Positions 3,009 to 34,922 of a stretch of 64,000 nucleotides of DNA are shown piece after piece. Position numbers and translations under genes: made by a program. Numbering within the stretch: position 1 is the stretch's first letter; every line of letters begins with the position of its first letter. Under the pieces are notes generated by a model. The model did no database searches, was not told the origin of the DNA, and saw only the letters and a program-made list of their open reading frames with translations. Source of the stretch: Leptobrachium leishanense (lineage: Eukaryota > Chordata > Amphibia > Anura > Megophryidae); assembly GCA_009667805.1 (NCBI GenBank), contig CM019063.1:408152959-408216958 (forward strand). The letters run 5' to 3'.

Positions 3009-4916
3009 TTGAATAAGCTGTCTCCTATTTTTAAAATATACTTTTTTCTTTTGCTTAAAGAAAAAAAATTAAAGCTGTGGACCTGTTTTGTGCTATTTGC
3101 TGCCACAAATCATTTAGGTTGCAAATTAGATCTTTCTTCATCTCTGTGTGTGGCCATGCTTACTGCTGTTAGTAGTAATCGTATATTTTTTGCTGTAAAA
3201 CGTGGAGATGCTTTCTTTGGACTTCCCTTAGCATCCCGGTTTCCCCAGCAGATCGCAGGGCAGGTGCCAGGTGTGCCCGAGGTGTTGTGTGGTAGCATGA
3301 GGGGGCAGTGTGAAGAAAGGCAGGGGGTGAGTGAATGCCCGCCTGCACCCGAGTCAACTGGTTCCCCGGACCCCATGCGTGGGGAGGCCGCTGTGCCCAT
3401 GGTGGAAGTGGGTACCTGCTGGCAGTCTGCCAGGAGTAGGGCATAAGGCCCGTCTCTGCCGTGTGATGGGGTGGATCAGAATGCCTGGGAAGGGTGGCAG
3501 GATACTGTGGTGTGCCTGCCTAGACCAGAATCAGGTGTGTCTGTGACGCCATATGGTTGGGAGCAAGGGCAAGGGATGACTGCAGGTCTGCTTGCACCTT
3601 AACCAACCAGGACTCTAGTGCCCCGTGAGAATGGTGTTGATCAGAATGCCTGGGAGGGGTGGCAGGATACTGTGGTATGCCTGCATAGACCAGACTCAGG
3701 TGTGTCTGTGGCGCCACGCGGTTGGGAGGGAGAACAAATGACCAAGGCAGGTTCCTTTAGGGCTGAACTAACTGGGTCAGTGGTGCTGGAGGGAAAGTGT
3801 GGGCATCGGAAGGCCTGGGATGAGCAGGATACCGCGGTGTGCCCGCTTGTGCCATGGGTGTCTGAGACTGTGCGTGGCGCAGAGGGCATACTGGGTGGTC
3901 AGAATGATAGGCCTAGGGTGAAAGAGGGTTAACCAGTGCCTGAACCATCCAGGTTGGCGGTGCCAGGTGAAAGGAATGGAGAGGCGAACATCCTGGATGG
4001 GCAGGATACTGTGGTATGCCAGTCTGTGACCCATGTGTCTGAGGCTGCGGGTAGCACCGAGCGCATGCTGTGTAGTCAGGAGGAAGGGCCTGGGGTGGAC
4101 GCGTGTTGCCCTGTGGGAAAGCCAACCAGATCCCCAGTACCACAGGAAACTGGTACTGGGCAACCTCCCTGTGGAGGAGGGTGGCATACGGATGTATGCT
4201 CATGGGTTACGAAGCAAGGTGTGCTTGATAAATTGTATGATCCAGTGGGGGAACCTGGGTGCACTGGGGGACGGGGCGAGAGTGAGCGTGAATAATCCTG
4301 TGCCCCAACTGTATGGTTCCCCAAAGTCTGAAGGTGTGGGGACAGTGAGAGAAGGGGAGGAAACGGGTCCTGGTTGGGTCCTGGTGACCTCCCAGCCATC
4401 TGCCCAGAGCCAGGCACGATGCCTGACTCTGTTGGCAGATGCCAGGGGGACGTTTACAGGGGAGCATGGCGCTTCATCCGGGTTCTCCCTACCCCCTGCG
4501 GTAAGGATGGTTCCAGAGCCGGCGACTATGTATGAATGTTTTGCGGGCTGCAAGACTGAGGTGCAAGGTGAGAGTGAGCCACATGTGCTGCACCCCCTAA
4601 AGGTATACCAGGAGGGGCTGCAGAAGCACAGGGGCTTCTCCGAGTCTGTGCCATGCTGTGAGTGCGGTGCGAGTGACCCCCTCCCCCTGGCTTGGGAGAG
4701 GTGGGGTAGAATGGTGGAGTCGCCAAAGACCTCCATGGGGGAATGTGTGGGGTGGTTGCAAGAGGGAGTACAAGCGTTGGTGGGCCAGGTACATGGACAC
4801 CTCTGGGTCACCTACTCCAGGTGGTTTGCTCGATGCCAGGGGGTAAACACGTGTTAAGACACACGTGAGAGGCATGATAGCCCCTCCCTTTCCGCGTCTC
4901 CTTTTGGATGGGAGAT
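3009..4916 (+). pseudogene. Decayed ORF with five in-frame protein repeats, beside an LTR
   Basis: One reading frame stays largely open from about 3,009 to 4,295. It is broken by in-frame TAA codons at 3,444, 3,600 and 3,930. The coding register then moves to another frame that stays open to 4,857. Within the first frame a QDTVVC-type word recurs at nucleotides 3,498, 3,663, 3,825 and 4,002, plus a degenerate HTDVC at 4,185. The spacings are 55, 54, 59 and 61 codons, all exact multiples of three, which indicates that selection once acted on protein. Units also share 'VSV/VSE' and tryptophan- and glycine-rich stretches. I recognise no catalytic domain. The block ends just upstream of the LTR starting at 4,939, so it may be the 3' internal part of that LTR retroelement. 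A captured host repeat protein is an alternative. It cannot make a full product now. Confidence 0.5.
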
Positions 4917-4938
4917 GTAGCAGATTAGAGATGTGAGA

Positions 4939-6185
4939 TGGGGCAGATTAGATCTGTATTTCTATCTATATAAGGGTCTGCCTGTGTATATGTGTCTATG
5001 TGCCTGTTTATACATATCTCCTCCATATAGAGTCATATTCATATTTGTGTCTGACCATTTCGGGAGAGTGTCTCTGTGTCCACAGCTGTCGGGAATAAGT
5101 GCTAAAATGTAATTAAAATGGTTAGCTTTCTCCCTTGGGGGGAGGATATAACACGTGGCTGTAAAATGGAATGTCTTTTGTGAACTGACATGTCGTGTAG
5201 CCTATTAGTCACACCTTGATAGCCAACCCGGCACCAAGAGGTAGGTCCTATCTTCAAAGAAGGAAGCACATCCCTTGATCCCTAAGGGGGGTCTGGGACG
5301 AAGATGGACGCCTTTGGGCAATTAAAGATTAATGACGAAGCATACTGAGCATGCTCAGAAGAGGGGAATTCTGGGGATTGTAGGCAAAGTCTCTGCCAGC
5401 TAGGAGGCTGGAGTTAGAAAAAGGCAGCCCTATATATATTCTGGGGCAGGCCCTAGGCTTTGGCAGATCACAGGGGGTTCATGTGTCCTGTGCCATGAGG
5501 ATTTGTCCATGCTGTACATGCTTCTGGCTTCAGCCCCCAGGAGTCGCCGAGAATTAGCTTATTTGACGTGTAAGTAAGACTCTGTGCTTAATCCCTTTCA
5601 TTTATTTGCTGTGTACTGTGTAACTAGCGATTTATTCTAGCTATAATTTTTCCTGTAACCAATGCACTGTGATTCTGTATCATAAATAAATATAACTTAT
5701 TTAAGTCTCTGCTTTTGCCTGATGAGATCCATGCTATCTAAGAGAAGGTTGTTTTAAGCTCGGGTAGATACAAAATTGTGAGTTGCGGTCGCTGGGGATG
5801 ACAGGGATTGTTGTCTATGCAGTCACTGTCCGGGTCTAGGGTAGGCAGACAGCGCGGTTGCTTAGCCCTGCGTCTCTCGCTGCGACGCGCGTAGTGTCCA
5901 TGAGGACTGGTGGCAGCGTAACTAATAGAATAGGAAAGTGAGCCCAGGGATTGTGGGATACGTAGTCATTACCCGCTTCAAGAGAAGACTTGTACTGCGT
6001 TGCAATCCTGGGATCATTGTATCACGCTCTATGTACCTGTTGCGAGAGAAAATGTGCGGGGACAGATAGGTAAGCAAGCGCGCGGGGGCTTGCTGTCCAC
6101 GCAGTCATTATCTGGGCTAGACTAGACAGATAGTGGGTGGCTTAACCCGGCATCTTTCGCAGAAGCGCGTGTAGTGGCTGTGACA
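4939..6185 (+). mobile_element. LTR, probably the 3' LTR of a damaged element
   Basis: About 1.25 kb beginning TG (4,939) and ending 'gctgtgaca' (CA end at 6,185). It aligns over its whole length with the LTR at 29,271-32,860 once that copy's insertion is removed, which fixes both ends. The flanking 5 bp (tgaga and acgtc) do not match. That fits a 3' LTR whose internal sequence lies upstream better than a solo LTR. The start word is partly duplicated just upstream at 4,916. No reverse transcriptase, integrase or primer-binding site is visible, so the Gypsy-versus-retrovirus-like class is left open. Confidence 0.65.
5431..5690 (+). promoter_or_regulatory. Putative LTR TATA box and polyadenylation signal
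   Basis: A TATA-like 'tatatatatt' at 5,431 is followed 254 bp later by 'aataaa' at 5,685. The other LTR copy has 'tataaat' at 29,744 and 'aataaa' at 29,996, 252 bp apart. The conserved spacing fits a U3/R boundary and R-region polyadenylation signal. Activity is inferred only. Confidence 0.4.
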
Positions 6186-6690
6186 ACGTCCATATGACTC
6201 CATGGAGGATCGTGCTGCCGGATCAAATGACTGGCAGGATCTCGCCTTTCACTTTCTTCCCCCAGTCTCCCTCTGCTCCTGGTGGCCAGAAGCAGCGGAT
6301 CGGGCCGTTGTTCTCGCTGCGGGATAAGAGGTGAGGTTTTTTTGGGGGGGTTTGAGCTGCAGGTAACGGATTCTGCAGCAGCAGAATCCGTTACCTACAA
6401 CTCTGAGCTGGTGTTAACGTTTTTAGGTAGTGCCAGCTCTTAGGATCACTTGGTCCTGATGTAGTTACTAACGCTAGTTACTCTGTGCTTGCACTTTGCA
6501 CTCCCCATGTTAGGTATAAGGAGCACAAAGTACAGTAAATTCGCCCTACGTATCGCTAATTAACTAGCGCTAATGGATTTTTTAACCCATTAGCGATTCA
6601 AATGCGTTCTGGCAGCAGCACTGTGACCTCCTTTAAGCTAGCGCTGATGCTAGTGTAAGCTTGAAGGAGGTGATAGAGCCCTTTGAGTAT
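6186..6690. mobile_element. Hairpin-rich transposon fragment (H3 type)
   Basis: Collinear with 11,330-12,085. Shared words include 'actggcaggatctcgcc', 'tctccctctgctcc(t/c)ggtgg', 'ctcgc(t/c)gcgggat' and the 'ctttgcactccccatgtt' hairpin at 6,491-6,533. A further relative lies at 57,001-57,533. The right end carries a short inverted repeat ('cacctcctttaagc' / 'gcttgaaggaggtg'). No duplication or complete terminal repeat is seen, so this is a truncated copy abutting the LTR. Confidence 0.55.
6361..6396. repeat. Perfect 16-bp hairpin inside the H3 element
   Basis: Arms 6,361-6,376 and 6,381-6,396 are exact reverse complements around 'agca'. The same stem word (taacggattctgc) appears in the hairpin at about 37,291-37,323 within another element. 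Confidence 0.8.
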
Positions 6691-7310
6691 GAAAGTGGGC
6701 ACATTACAACCTTTTCTTTACTTATAAGACCATGTATCCCCTGGATTGAATATGCCTTCTCAGCCTCAACGTTACATTTTCTGTGAACCGTGTTGCACAT
6801 TGAAATGTAGGTCATAGTATTGCTTCATTGCTTTATAAATTATATCTTCTCTCCATTAAGCAATGCTCATTTTATACATGGTAATTCATTTGTCCTTCCA
6901 AACTCTGACAACAACCAAATTTCTGTTTTCTTAACTGTTTCCAAAAATGCTTAACTTGTCATTTATTTCCCTTTATTTTAATCCACAGCATACCTATCTC
7001 CAGAACACCAGATTAGTCACCCAATTCTGTTGAAAAGAAACACTTTACTCGTAGTAAATAGTAATCATATTGTGTACAAACAATGATGTGCAGCACTTTT
7101 AATAGTTGATAAAATTTGCTGAAATATGTAAGAATATATGCTGATCTATTGTACACTTTTATCCTGCTTAAATATTACACATTGTAATTGCCACTGTATT
7201 TGCTATTTTTAGACCTACCACAAGCATGTGCCTCCTCCATGGTGTTTGCTTTCTTAATGTAATTTAACACTCAATATATCACCTGGAATTCGAAGGGTCA
7301 TTCCAGTGTA
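6691..7310. other. Unassigned AT-rich sequence
   Basis: No protein-like open frame, RNA gene or repeat shared with other parts of the window is visible. Confidence 0.5.
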
Positions 7311-29265: not shown

Positions 29266-29743
29266 GTGAGTGTGGCAGATTAGACCTGTATTTCTATCTA
29301 TATAAGGGTCTGCCTGTATATATGTGTCTATCTGCCGGTTCATACATATCTCCTCTCCTCCATATAGAGTGATATTCATATTTGTGTCTGGCCATTAGGT
29401 AAGTGTATCCCTGTGTCCACAGCTGAAATGTAATCAAAATGTTTAGCTTTCTCCATTGGGGGGAGGATATAACACGTAGCTGTAAAAAGGGAATTTCTTT
29501 GTACACTAACATAGAAAATCACACCTTGGCAGCCAGGTCGGCACCAAGAGATGGGGACACCATCTTCAAAGACAGGAAGCACATCCTTGATCTCTAAGGG
29601 GGGTCTGGAGGGAAGAGGGACGCCTTTAGGCAATTAAAGATTAATTGACAAGCTTACTGAGCATGAGCGAGAATTGCACTCTGGGAAATGGAGTCCAGGA
29701 CACTGGGCCATTGGTGGGTGGGGGCTGGAAAGATCAGGAAGTG

Positions 29744-30001
29744 TATAAATTCGAACACTGGCCATGTGCTTCTGGCTGATCACTTGGGGTACCTTCTAAA
29801 GAGGACTGATCTGTCCATGTTCCTACCTCCAGGCCCCAGGAGGCACCGATGCTAGCTACTGATTATTCCGTCGTAAGTAAGGCTCTGTGATTAACACCTT
29901 TTTCTTTATATTTTGCTGTGTAGTGTGTAAGTAATTGATTTATTCTAGTTATAAGTTTTTATGTAACCAAGCACTGTGATTCTTTTTATATCATAAATAA
30001 A
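29744..30001 (+). promoter_or_regulatory. Putative LTR TATA box and polyadenylation signal, second copy
   Basis: 'tataaat' at 29,744-29,750 and 'aataaa' at 29,996-30,001, matching the 5,431/5,685 pair in position and spacing. Confidence 0.4.
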
Positions 30002-30318
30002 CAAAAAGTATTTAAGTTTTGACTCTGGCTGATGAAATCCACGCTAACTAAGAGATTGGGAGTATTGCTATTTGCTTTAAACTCGGTTATATATAAGAAA
30101 TTGCGTGTTGCGGTCGTCAGGAAACAGCAGGGAATTGTGGGATCCATAGTCACTGTCCAAGTCTAGGATAGTGCGGCTGCTAAGCCCTGCGTCTCCTGTT
30201 GCGACGCGCGTAGTGTCCGTGAGGACTGGTGGCAGCGTTATTAATAGAATAAGAAAGTGAGCTCTGGGATTGTGAGAGACGTAGTTAGTACGCGCTTCAG
30301 GAGAAGACTTGTACTGCG

Positions 30319-31333
30319 CAGAGGGAGGTAATTTGCGTTGAAAATCCGTATAAGTGCGAAACGGAAATATTCTAAAATATTCTAGAAAAAGAGCACAGTC
30401 TAGGAACAGACCAATGTTAAATGTACACTAGAAAAAGTGCAATGCAATCGAAAGTGCATATGGTGCAAGCAACTGAAAGGTGCTAATTAGGAACACAGTC
30501 TAGGAAGAGACCAAAAATAAAGTGCTATTTTAAATGTACACTAGAAAAGTGCAAATGCAATCAAAAGTGCATATAGAGCAAATAACAGGATATTCGTAAT
30601 AGAAACGATTCATAAAAACACATAAAAAGGACATAAAAAACAACACACACTGCTTGTGCAAAGTGCAAATATAAAGTGCAATTGAACAAAAATGGTAATA
30701 AAAATAGTCCAGAGATAATGCAAAAAGTCTAAAAAGACTAAAAGGCTAAAAATACAGTCTTATACGTGAATAAATAAAGGAGGGCTAATTGATAACTGTG
30801 TAGACCTCTCACTTATAACGTCCGTATACGAGGATCCTCCAAATGGGGGAGAAATGGATCTTATCCTTGTTGTCCTAGTGGATTCCGTGTTCTAGTAGAT
30901 TCCACGTTATCGTAGTACGGGGAAGGGGAAAAAGAGAGAAAGAGAAAAATAGTGCAATATTGTCTAAATATATTGGTCGTGGAAGGATGCAAGAAAAAAT
31001 GCACACTTACACTTTCCAGAGCCTATATAGTCCAGGCTCTGGTTCGAAATGCACTGGGCCAAGTATAGAGTGGCCTCTTCCCTTCTTTGGAAATTATTGT
31101 TCACCTCGGATATAGAAAAACAGGGTATTCATAGCGCAACTTGAATGATGACTGGGTACATTGGTAAAGATAGGGTTAGTCTCACTCACCGATGGTGGAG
31201 CCTTGTTCCAGGCTCGACTTAATGGCATGCAGTGCTCCTTTGCTCGGTGGGCACCGTCACCTCTTTAGCTGCACCTCTTTAACTGTCTTCTACTGGCTCA
31301 GAAGGGCAAATAAAGTAAATAGACCAAAAAAAA
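30319..31333. repeat. Left arm of the ~1-kb inverted repeat
   Basis: Pairs with 31,516-32,536 in reverse. A transcript of the whole insertion would fold into a ~1-kb near-perfect double-stranded RNA. The arms contain three imperfect 'gcacagtctaggaa..gacca'-type subrepeats near 30,390-30,520. Confidence 0.9.
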
Positions 31334-31375
31334 TAGACCAAAAAAAAAAAAGGGGTTTGCCCCTTTTTTCTGTTA

Positions 31376-31416
31376 TGGACTGATGAAGGCACGTGAGCTG
31401 CCGAAACGCGTATCCT
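31376..31416 (+). ncRNA. Hammerhead-ribozyme-like motif with self-complementary helix III
   Basis: CUGAUGA at 31,380-31,386. Helix II is GGCA (31,388-31,391) with UGCC (31,399-31,402). An intact GAAA follows at 31,403-31,406. Then come the palindrome ACGCGU (31,406-31,411) and a possible GUA cleavage triplet ending at 31,412. Helix I starts GGA (31,377-31,379) with UCC (31,413-31,415) and continues less clearly. One extra A at 31,387 sits between the core and helix II, which may reduce activity. Helix III is too short to close within one molecule. Such minimal hammerheads from Penelope-like elements are reported to act as dimers. Confidence 0.6.
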
Positions 31417-31515
31417 CCACCATTATCATTTTTCTTTTTCCCTCCCCCCCTTTTATTTTAGATTTTCTCAATAAACCACGTTATTTTAATTTACCAATTC
31501 GTGGTTTTGCTGCTG

Positions 31516-32536
31516 TTTTTTTTGGTCTATTTACTTTATTTGCCCTTCTGAGCCAGTAGAAGACCGTTAAAGAGGTGCAGCTAAAGAGGTGACGGTGCCC
31601 ACCGAGCAAAGGAGCACTGCATGCCATTAAGTCGAGCCTGGAACAAGGCTCCACCATCGGTGAGTGAGACTAACCCTATGTTTACCAATGTACCCAGTCA
31701 TCATTCAAGTTACGCTATGAATACCCTGTTTTTCTATATCCGAGGTGAACAATAATTTCCAAAGAAGGGAAGAGGCCACTCTATACTTGGCCCAGTGCAT
31801 TTCGAACCAGAGCCTGGACTATATAGGCTCTGGAAAGTGTAAGTGTGCATTTTTTCTTGCATCCTTCCACGACCAATATATTTAGACAATATTGCACTAT
31901 TTTTCTCTTTCTCTCTTTTTCCCCTTCCCCGTACTACGAGAACGTGGAATCTACTAGAACACGGAATCCACTAGGACAACAAGGATAAGATCCATTTCTC
32001 ACCCATTTGGAGGATCCTCGTATACGGACGTTATAAGTGAGAGGCCTACACAGTTATCAATTAGCCCTCCTTTATTTATTCATGTATAAGACTGTATTTT
32101 TAGCCTTTTAGTCTTTTTAGACTTTTTGCATTATCTCTGGACTATTTTTATTACCATTTTTGTGCTAATTCAATTGCACTTTATATTTGCACTTTGCACA
32201 AGCAGTGTGTGTTGTTTTTTATGTCCTTTTTATGTGTTTTTATGAATCGTTTCTATTACGAATATCCTGTTATTTGCACTATATGCACTTTTGATTGCAT
32301 TTGCACTTTTCTAGTGTACATTTAAAATAGCACTTTATTTTTGGTCTCTTCCTAGACTGTGTTCCTAATTAGCACCTTTCAGTTGCTTGCACCATATGCA
32401 CTTTCGATTGCATTGCACTTTTTCTAGTGTACATTTAACATTGGTCTGTTCCTAGACTGTGCTCTTTTTCTAGAATATTTTAGAATATTTCCGTTTCGCA
32501 CTTATACGGATTTTCAACGCAAATTACCTCCCTCTG
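31516..32536. repeat. Right arm of the ~1-kb inverted repeat
   Basis: Reverse complement of 30,319-31,333 with scattered single-base differences, for example around 31,679-31,682 and 32,046. Confidence 0.9.
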
Positions 32537-32991
32537 CGCCACTGGAGTAACCCCCATTTCCTTTCGTATCTCAAACACATTTCTGTCGAGGTTTTGTGTT
32601 CCTCTTCCAGTAGGCTGCATACATATTCACACCAATATCCTATTCACTTTAGCGCCTCCTCCGTACCACATTCCCTCGAAGACTTGTACTGCGTTGCAAT
32701 CCTGGGATCAGTATATCGCGCTCTACGTGCCTGTTGTGAGAGAAAGTGTGGCCGGGACGGGTAGAGAAGTGCGCGTAATTATCTGGGTCTAGGATAGATA
32801 GATAGTGAGCGGCTTAACCCGGCATCTTTGCGCAGCAGCGCGCGTAGTTGGGTCGTGACAGTGAGCATTTAATTTAATTTAATTTAAATGGTCCTGGAGA
32901 GCTTTGTCCTTCCACCCAGTCACGTCTCTCAATGGACTGTAACAGCTCAAAGTGGATGGTTTTCCCCAGCATTTGGGGGTGAAGTGAGAAG

Positions 32992-34540: not shown

Positions 34541-34715
34541 GTCTATTAACTAAAAAGGTGAAACTCTGGAGAGCTTTTGGAGAAGTGAAAATTCTAGGTC
34601 AAAATAGCCGATTTGGATAGTGAGATAAATGGGAGAATTTTTCTGGTTTGGCTATTTTGACCTAGAATTTTCACTTCTCCAAGTACTCCAGAGTTTCACC
34701 TTTTAGTAAACAGAC
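34541..34715. mobile_element. Hairpin MITE, M1-related subfamily
   Basis: A 175-bp palindrome. The ends read 'gtctattaactaaaaaggtg' and 'caccttttagtaaacagac', unlike the CAGGG ends of M1, but the core ('ctaggtcaaaatagcc', 'gtgagataaatgggagaatt') is the same. A second copy of this type is at 62,603-62,766. Confidence 0.75.
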
Positions 34716-34752
34716 CCTTGACTATCACCAATGGACCAGTTCAAAAGACCAT

Positions 34753-34922
34753 CAGGGTTATTCAAAGAAAGGTGAAACTTTGGAGAAGTGAAACTTCTAG
34801 GTAAAAATAGCCAAACTAGAAAAATTCGCCCATTTATCTCACTTTCCAAATCGGCTATTTTGATCTAGAATTTTCACTTCTCCAAAAGTTCTCCAGTTTT
34901 CAGCTTTCTCTGAATAACCCCG
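34753..34922. mobile_element. Hairpin MITE (M1 family)
   Basis: Starts 'cagggttattcaaagaaagg' and ends 'ctttctctgaataaccccg'. The flanking triplets no longer match. Confidence 0.8.

Follow-up and report, generated by a model that had tools for sequence, protein, structure and literature searches.

The insertion bounded by positions 30303 and 32693 of the window, the 64,000-nucleotide stretch of Leptobrachium leishanense DNA analysed here, is a copy of a Penelope-like element (PLE) family that carries pseudo-LTR sequence only, arranged head to head in inverted orientation. The family is new and its class is known, the arms being the 1.2-kb pseudo-LTR of a PLE. The inverted arms were probably made from two cDNAs begun at two internal reverse transcriptase (RT) start sites, one on each target strand.

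Self-comparison of the window revealed two arms in inverted orientation, separated by 176 nt between the inner arms. The aligned inverted pairs are 30316–30686/32169–32539 (371 nt, printed as 100% identical, with one mismatch in the alignment) and 30674–31336/31513–32175 (663 nt, 98%), and the arms differ by about 10 substitutions and one 6-nt indel. Given their length and identity, the arms are not a chance similarity. A preliminary description of this DNA had claimed near-identical inverted arms of about 1 kb around a spacer of about 180 bp holding a hammerhead-like core; both are present, the arms at about 1.02 kb and 98% to about 100% identity, the spacer at 176 bp with the motif at 31380–31411. 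We numbered the element along a monomer in which window positions 31337–32677 correspond to q1–q1341. The no-tail arm (30316–31336, minus strand) is an inverted pseudo-LTR copy running from q1203 down to about q169. It is followed by a junction of an A-run and GGGG (31337–31356, strand undefined), which may be a remnant of left-arm q33–q24 after loss of about q34–q160, given the head-to-head junctions of other copies. The pseudo-LTR part of the tail arm (31357–32539, plus strand) starts at q21, the putative RNA 5′ end, and contains a minimal type I hammerhead motif (31375–31415, plus strand; predicted cleavage after 31412). The 138-bp tail (32540–32677, plus strand), which would lie between the two RT start sites, is on one side of the insertion only.

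The insertion is flanked by a direct 16-mer, GAAGACTTGTACTGCG, at 30303–30318 and 32678–32693 (both plus strand); since the last three bases of the left copy (GCG) also match the element, the duplication could be 13–16 bp. The interrupted repeat, taken for an LTR in the preliminary description, has its left part at 29266–30302 and its right part at 32694–32860 (both plus strand). A related repeat at 4932–6185 (plus strand), 73–76% identical to the flanks of the insertion, runs unbroken over the insertion site as an empty-site relative, and the claimed insertion with a 16-bp target duplication is thus borne out. Elsewhere in the window, 34554–34907 is a self-inverted repeat (about 80%) of a separate fold-back repeat family, with relatives at 13.6–14.5, 50.9–51.5, 55.1–55.3 and 62.6–62.7 kb.

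A genome-wide search of one 3.54-Gb genome revealed that the monomer recurs elsewhere. The best 40 of 501 first-look candidates were scored in one genome search and the best 40 of 862 in another, so the copy number is a lower bound. We fetched 38 loci (L009–L046) and mapped them against the monomer; in several, RT-region sequence adjoins it. L029 consists, in order, of a pseudo-LTR with its tail, RT (RVT_1, E 0.001) and GIY-YIG (E 0.00089) stretches, the upstream region and a further pseudo-LTR, with an inverted copy in front. The two domains lie in separate open stretches, both scoring below the Pfam curated cut-off, and the tail in such RT-bearing copies continues into the coding region. The Penelope-like RT with the same tail, for which the preliminary description had proposed a search, was accordingly found in tail-carrying copies such as L029, and arms, spacer and tail belong to one family. 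The window insertion carries neither RT nor GIY-YIG. L019 also carries RT-region sequence, and its pseudo-LTR pieces are 96–98% identical to the window copy. For the RT stretch of L013, the best-scoring named matches among the best 7,990 candidates scored are frog RT proteins, the top one from Leptobrachium leishanense (70% identical over 89%); PF00078, PF28514, PF26215 and some PF01541 occur in its relatives among the matches listed (the best 120 of 1,851). The family therefore combines RT and GIY-YIG in autonomous copies (L029, with sub-cut-off scores), a body flanked by direct or inverted pseudo-LTRs (L029 and others), a tail on some ends and absent from others, and a candidate hammerhead within the pseudo-LTR. 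Published PLEs already show inverted pseudo-LTRs, an optional tail, palindromes of head-to-head type and minimal hammerheads (PMC3846280, PMC7761336, PMC6155905, PMC11167929). The arrangement, which the preliminary description did not know as a described element class, is that of a PLE with inverted pseudo-LTRs (PMC3846280).

Copies of the family end either at q1341, with the tail, or mostly at q1203–q1233, without it. We examined 39 places, namely the 38 loci and the window, with L029 and L031 merged as one insertion given their nearly identical right flanks. Eighteen of the 39 have both two arms and a target duplication. In every one of these, one end carries the tail and the other stops short of it; with a free and equal choice at each end, the chance of this outcome is about 4e-6. 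Ten of these insertions came from the hammerhead-side query only (L009, L011, L012, L013, L015, L016, L017, L020, L023 and L027), L031 and L034 from both lists, five from the tail query, and one is the window. Since tail-selected loci cannot show two no-tail ends, the hammerhead-side-only ten form the fairest subset, in which the rule holds in 10 of 10 (chance about 1e-3). The no-tail end lies about 111–141 nt upstream of the tail end in 16 of the 18, twelve of these distances being scored by script and four (L013, L016, L040 and L041) read from the printed sequence. The outliers, L015 and L023, have no-tail starts 233 and 217 nt from the tail end, which counts against two start sites. Duplications are 13–16 bp in the 17 two-armed insertions scored by script, except for L046 (21 bp); that of L016, which like that of L025 comes from a separate second look, is 15 bp with one mismatch. 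In eight insertions q1341 and the duplication are separated by extra bases, which in most of the eight match the GTTTC continuation. Microhomology of 0–3 nt at the 14 no-tail starts that were scored (sum 19) is higher than a one-in-four model predicts (P about 3e-5); the duplications were taken at maximal length, which favours overlap, and microhomology can also stem from end joining.

Thirteen of the 39 places (L018, L019, L021, L024, L026, L028, L030, L032, L036, L038, L039, L043 and L044) were left out of this count, their duplication not being found or an end lying outside the locus. A second look for duplications covered L026, L036, L038, L039, L028, L030 and L044. At the two-armed L028, L030 and L044 the target duplication was looked for and not found, which also counts against two start sites; their second arms stop at q1126 or q475, q908 and q300, respectively. 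A further seven copies with target duplications are one-armed, with a tail in L010, L025, L035, L037 and L045 and none in L014 and L022. The no-tail copy in L014 is bracketed by 236-bp direct flank copies (4430–4665 and 6142–6377, 99.6% identical), which are either a target duplication of exceptional length or the result of tandem duplication. At L011 the element lies in the middle of an AT-rich palindrome of the host, and the flanks of the insertion (2830–2860 and 7000–7035) are near-inverted copies of each other. L029 and L031 are unplaced contigs with different left ends, and they share a head-to-head junction (L029:1517–2039 and L031:2084–2607) that falls within the upstream region of the element.

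The no-tail arm combines a fixed outer end with an inner end anywhere from about q21 to q1201, which is what a start site gives. The length of the inverted arm ranges from about 30 nt (L040) and 58 nt (L013) up to more than 1.2 kb. One or both arms stop at about q18–q31 in L009, L015, L017, L020, L027, L033, L034, L044 and the window. Where a copy has upstream sequence, these ends lie, by eye, about 30 nt downstream of TATATAAA, and their recurrence is as would be expected for a transcript start. As many copies, e.g. L010, L011, L013, L016 and L023, extend upstream of q21 and thus derive from longer RNAs, q18–q24 is not the sole template 5′ end. The inner ends are unequal in L017 (about q1020 and q18), L040 (about q1201 and q452) and L013 (about q1169 and q1208), and the head-to-head junctions of L009 and L044 are near-palindromic. 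RNA 5′ ends cleaved by the hammerhead, predicted at q77, were rejected as the source of the inner ends: L039 starts at q80 and L046 at q83, neither exact, and ends at q18–q31 are common.

We propose a putative model for the insertion. Initially, the RT/endonuclease of the element would cut both target strands with a stagger of about 13–16 bp. One 3′ end would then prime a cDNA from the tail start site (q1341 plus 0–18 nt), and the opposite 3′ end, perhaps simultaneously, at a second internal site, usually about 111–141 nt upstream. Each cDNA would extend until it stops, often at the putative RNA 5′ end (about q18–q24). Finally, the two cDNAs would be joined head to head and the gaps filled, so that the product has inverted arms, carries the tail on just one side and is flanked by a target duplication. 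For a lizard PLE, work in vitro has reported two internal RT start sites that lie next to each other and delimit the tail, with both target strands being cut and extended (PMC11167929). No preference of either strand for a start site was observed in that system, which counts against our proposal (PMC11167929). The case is evenly balanced for one complex using the two sites in a complementary manner, one per strand, by which inverted pseudo-LTRs would be a normal product and two-sided first-strand synthesis would replace ordinary second-strand synthesis. Among the titles and abstract openings listed for open-licence articles in PMC, we found nothing linking two start sites with inverted pseudo-LTRs. 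For the origin of PLE inverted repeats, self-priming has been proposed and further tests asked for (PMC3846280). The one-tail rule turns the start sites described in vitro (PMC11167929) into a genome-scale prediction of which strand uses which site, checkable in any PLE-rich assembly.

The two arms of the same insertion group as sisters in 13 of the 15 pairs that could be tested (9 with starred support). Sisterhood is not rejected for the other two, L012 (AU p 0.054) and L046 (p 0.41). L031 (p 0.046) was kept out of the 15 along with L029; its value is ambiguous, as these two loci hold several pseudo-LTR copies. On these grounds, two different RNAs as templates are not supported. The window arms share rare bases at q538, q546, q760 and q1026, and almost every difference between them is private to one or the other arm. 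Sister arms, shared rare bases and private differences together make it probable that both arms go back to a single source copy, whether through one RNA used as template two times or through two RNAs transcribed from one locus. Gene conversion between the arms, suggested earlier for their high identity, is possible but unneeded, as private differences fit arms that were alike at insertion and mutated later. A single source copy is also compatible with self-priming (snap-back), and is the chief point in its favour: a tail-started cDNA would reach the RNA 5′ end, fold back and copy itself, halting about 120 nt short of its own start and so leaving the tail unpaired. Such a single folded-back cDNA would give the same sister arms, the near-palindromic junctions of L009 and L044 agree with it, and self-priming, with an antisense template, has been put forward for the rotifer Penelope (PMC3846280). 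However, the fixed end is the outer one and the inner ends are often unequal, as in L017, L040 and L013. Moreover, self-priming does not explain why the stop should lie at a constant distance of about 115 nt from the end, whereas two start sites have a biochemical precedent. Self-priming thus fits less well than two start sites, and we consider it rather unlikely.

The candidate hammerhead at 31380–31411 consists of CTGATGA, a GGCA/TGCC stem, GAAA and ACGCGT, the last two overlapping by the A. Its core, whose variation between copies would have spoken against the preliminary description, is intact in 41 of 41 rows, and q40–q80 is 98% identical to the window copy, compared with 95% immediately downstream of it and 90% for the outer arm. 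Such conservation would suit a selected, dsRNA-forming retrozyme with the loop hammerhead as its functional core. However, an ATG at 31383, inside the hammerhead, opens a 58-codon frame (31383–31559), and coding could explain the conservation of q40–q80, since the frame start sits in those bases, as reported for the PLE Poseidon PAc; in addition, many rows were retrieved with the hammerhead segment inside the query. Furthermore, hammerhead number and position differ among insertions. In a table of 16 two-armed insertions, six have the motif in both arms (L009, L011, L012, L015, L020 and L031), eight in one arm (L016, L017, L023, L027, L033, L034, L041 and the window) and two in neither (L042 and L046); L034 has it also in a 49-bp piece of its second arm that stands apart, and L044, which is not in the table, has it in both arms. 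The unit is moreover a 1.2–1.3-kb pseudo-LTR and not a 150–300-bp tandem, hammerhead-bounded retrozyme unit, and we regard a selected retrozyme as very improbable. As several relatives keep two hammerheads head to head, the single one at the loop is incidental and not, as first described, the design of the element; that of the window is best taken as the survivor of two, the left one having probably been lost by deletion. Rfam gave no gathering-score match anywhere in the window and no hammerhead family at E≤10 in 31300–31560, where the single copy lacks helix III. Dimer folding was predicted at −25.3 kcal/mol, compared with 2 × −8.9 for the monomers, with the ACGCGU sequences paired between strands, and is no more than suggestive. 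A 13-pair, nearly invariant helix is predicted at 32525–32677, with its 5′ strand lying immediately before the no-tail site. A conserved RNA fold joining the two start sites was rejected (compensatory change in 0 of 30 pairs, z −1.18).

That the palindrome is a local inverted duplication of a one-armed copy after insertion is hardly credible: one-armed copies with target duplications, which the preliminary description would have taken as evidence for rearrangement, do exist, five with and two without a tail, but 18 separate insertions show the same layout inside duplications abutting the outer end of the inverted arm.

In LINE-1 twin priming, the opposite target strand primes inside the RNA and yields an inverted segment, as proposed here for two start sites. 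Its second priming site is not known to be fixed and its segments are not known to duplicate the same region, unlike those of the present family. The metazoan retrozymes share with this insertion a type I hammerhead and a non-autonomous nature, and differ in being 150–300-bp hammerhead-bounded units instead of an inverted pseudo-LTR of 1.2–1.3 kb (PMC7761336). Like the minimal type I hammerheads of PLE pseudo-LTRs, the putative one here lacks a proper helix III, so that dimers are expected to be needed; unlike the published ones, it has a 6-nt self-complementary ACGCGU (PMC7761336, PMC6155905). In Drosophila virilis, dsRNA from Penelope inverted repeats has been proposed as a source of siRNA (PMC3136932). 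The Anolis carolinensis Poseidon element PAc has, as predicted here, a hammerhead at the start of the reading frame and two internal RT start sites bounding the tail, with cutting and extension of both strands in vitro; the start sites of PAc lie next to each other, whereas those proposed here are usually 111–141 nt apart, and the part of that report available to us draws no connection to inverted-repeat insertions (PMC11167929). The Adineta vaga Penelope Pen2a_Av differs in its pseudo-LTR of about 0.2 kb, compared with about 1.2 kb here, and its tail of 31 bp, compared with usually 111–141 nt. As described, it resembles the present family in having an inverted pseudo-LTR next to the direct one, in bearing the tail on the 3′ end of one inverted pseudo-LTR, and in its palindromic junctions of head-to-head type, its short target duplication and its GIY-YIG/RT (PMC3846280).
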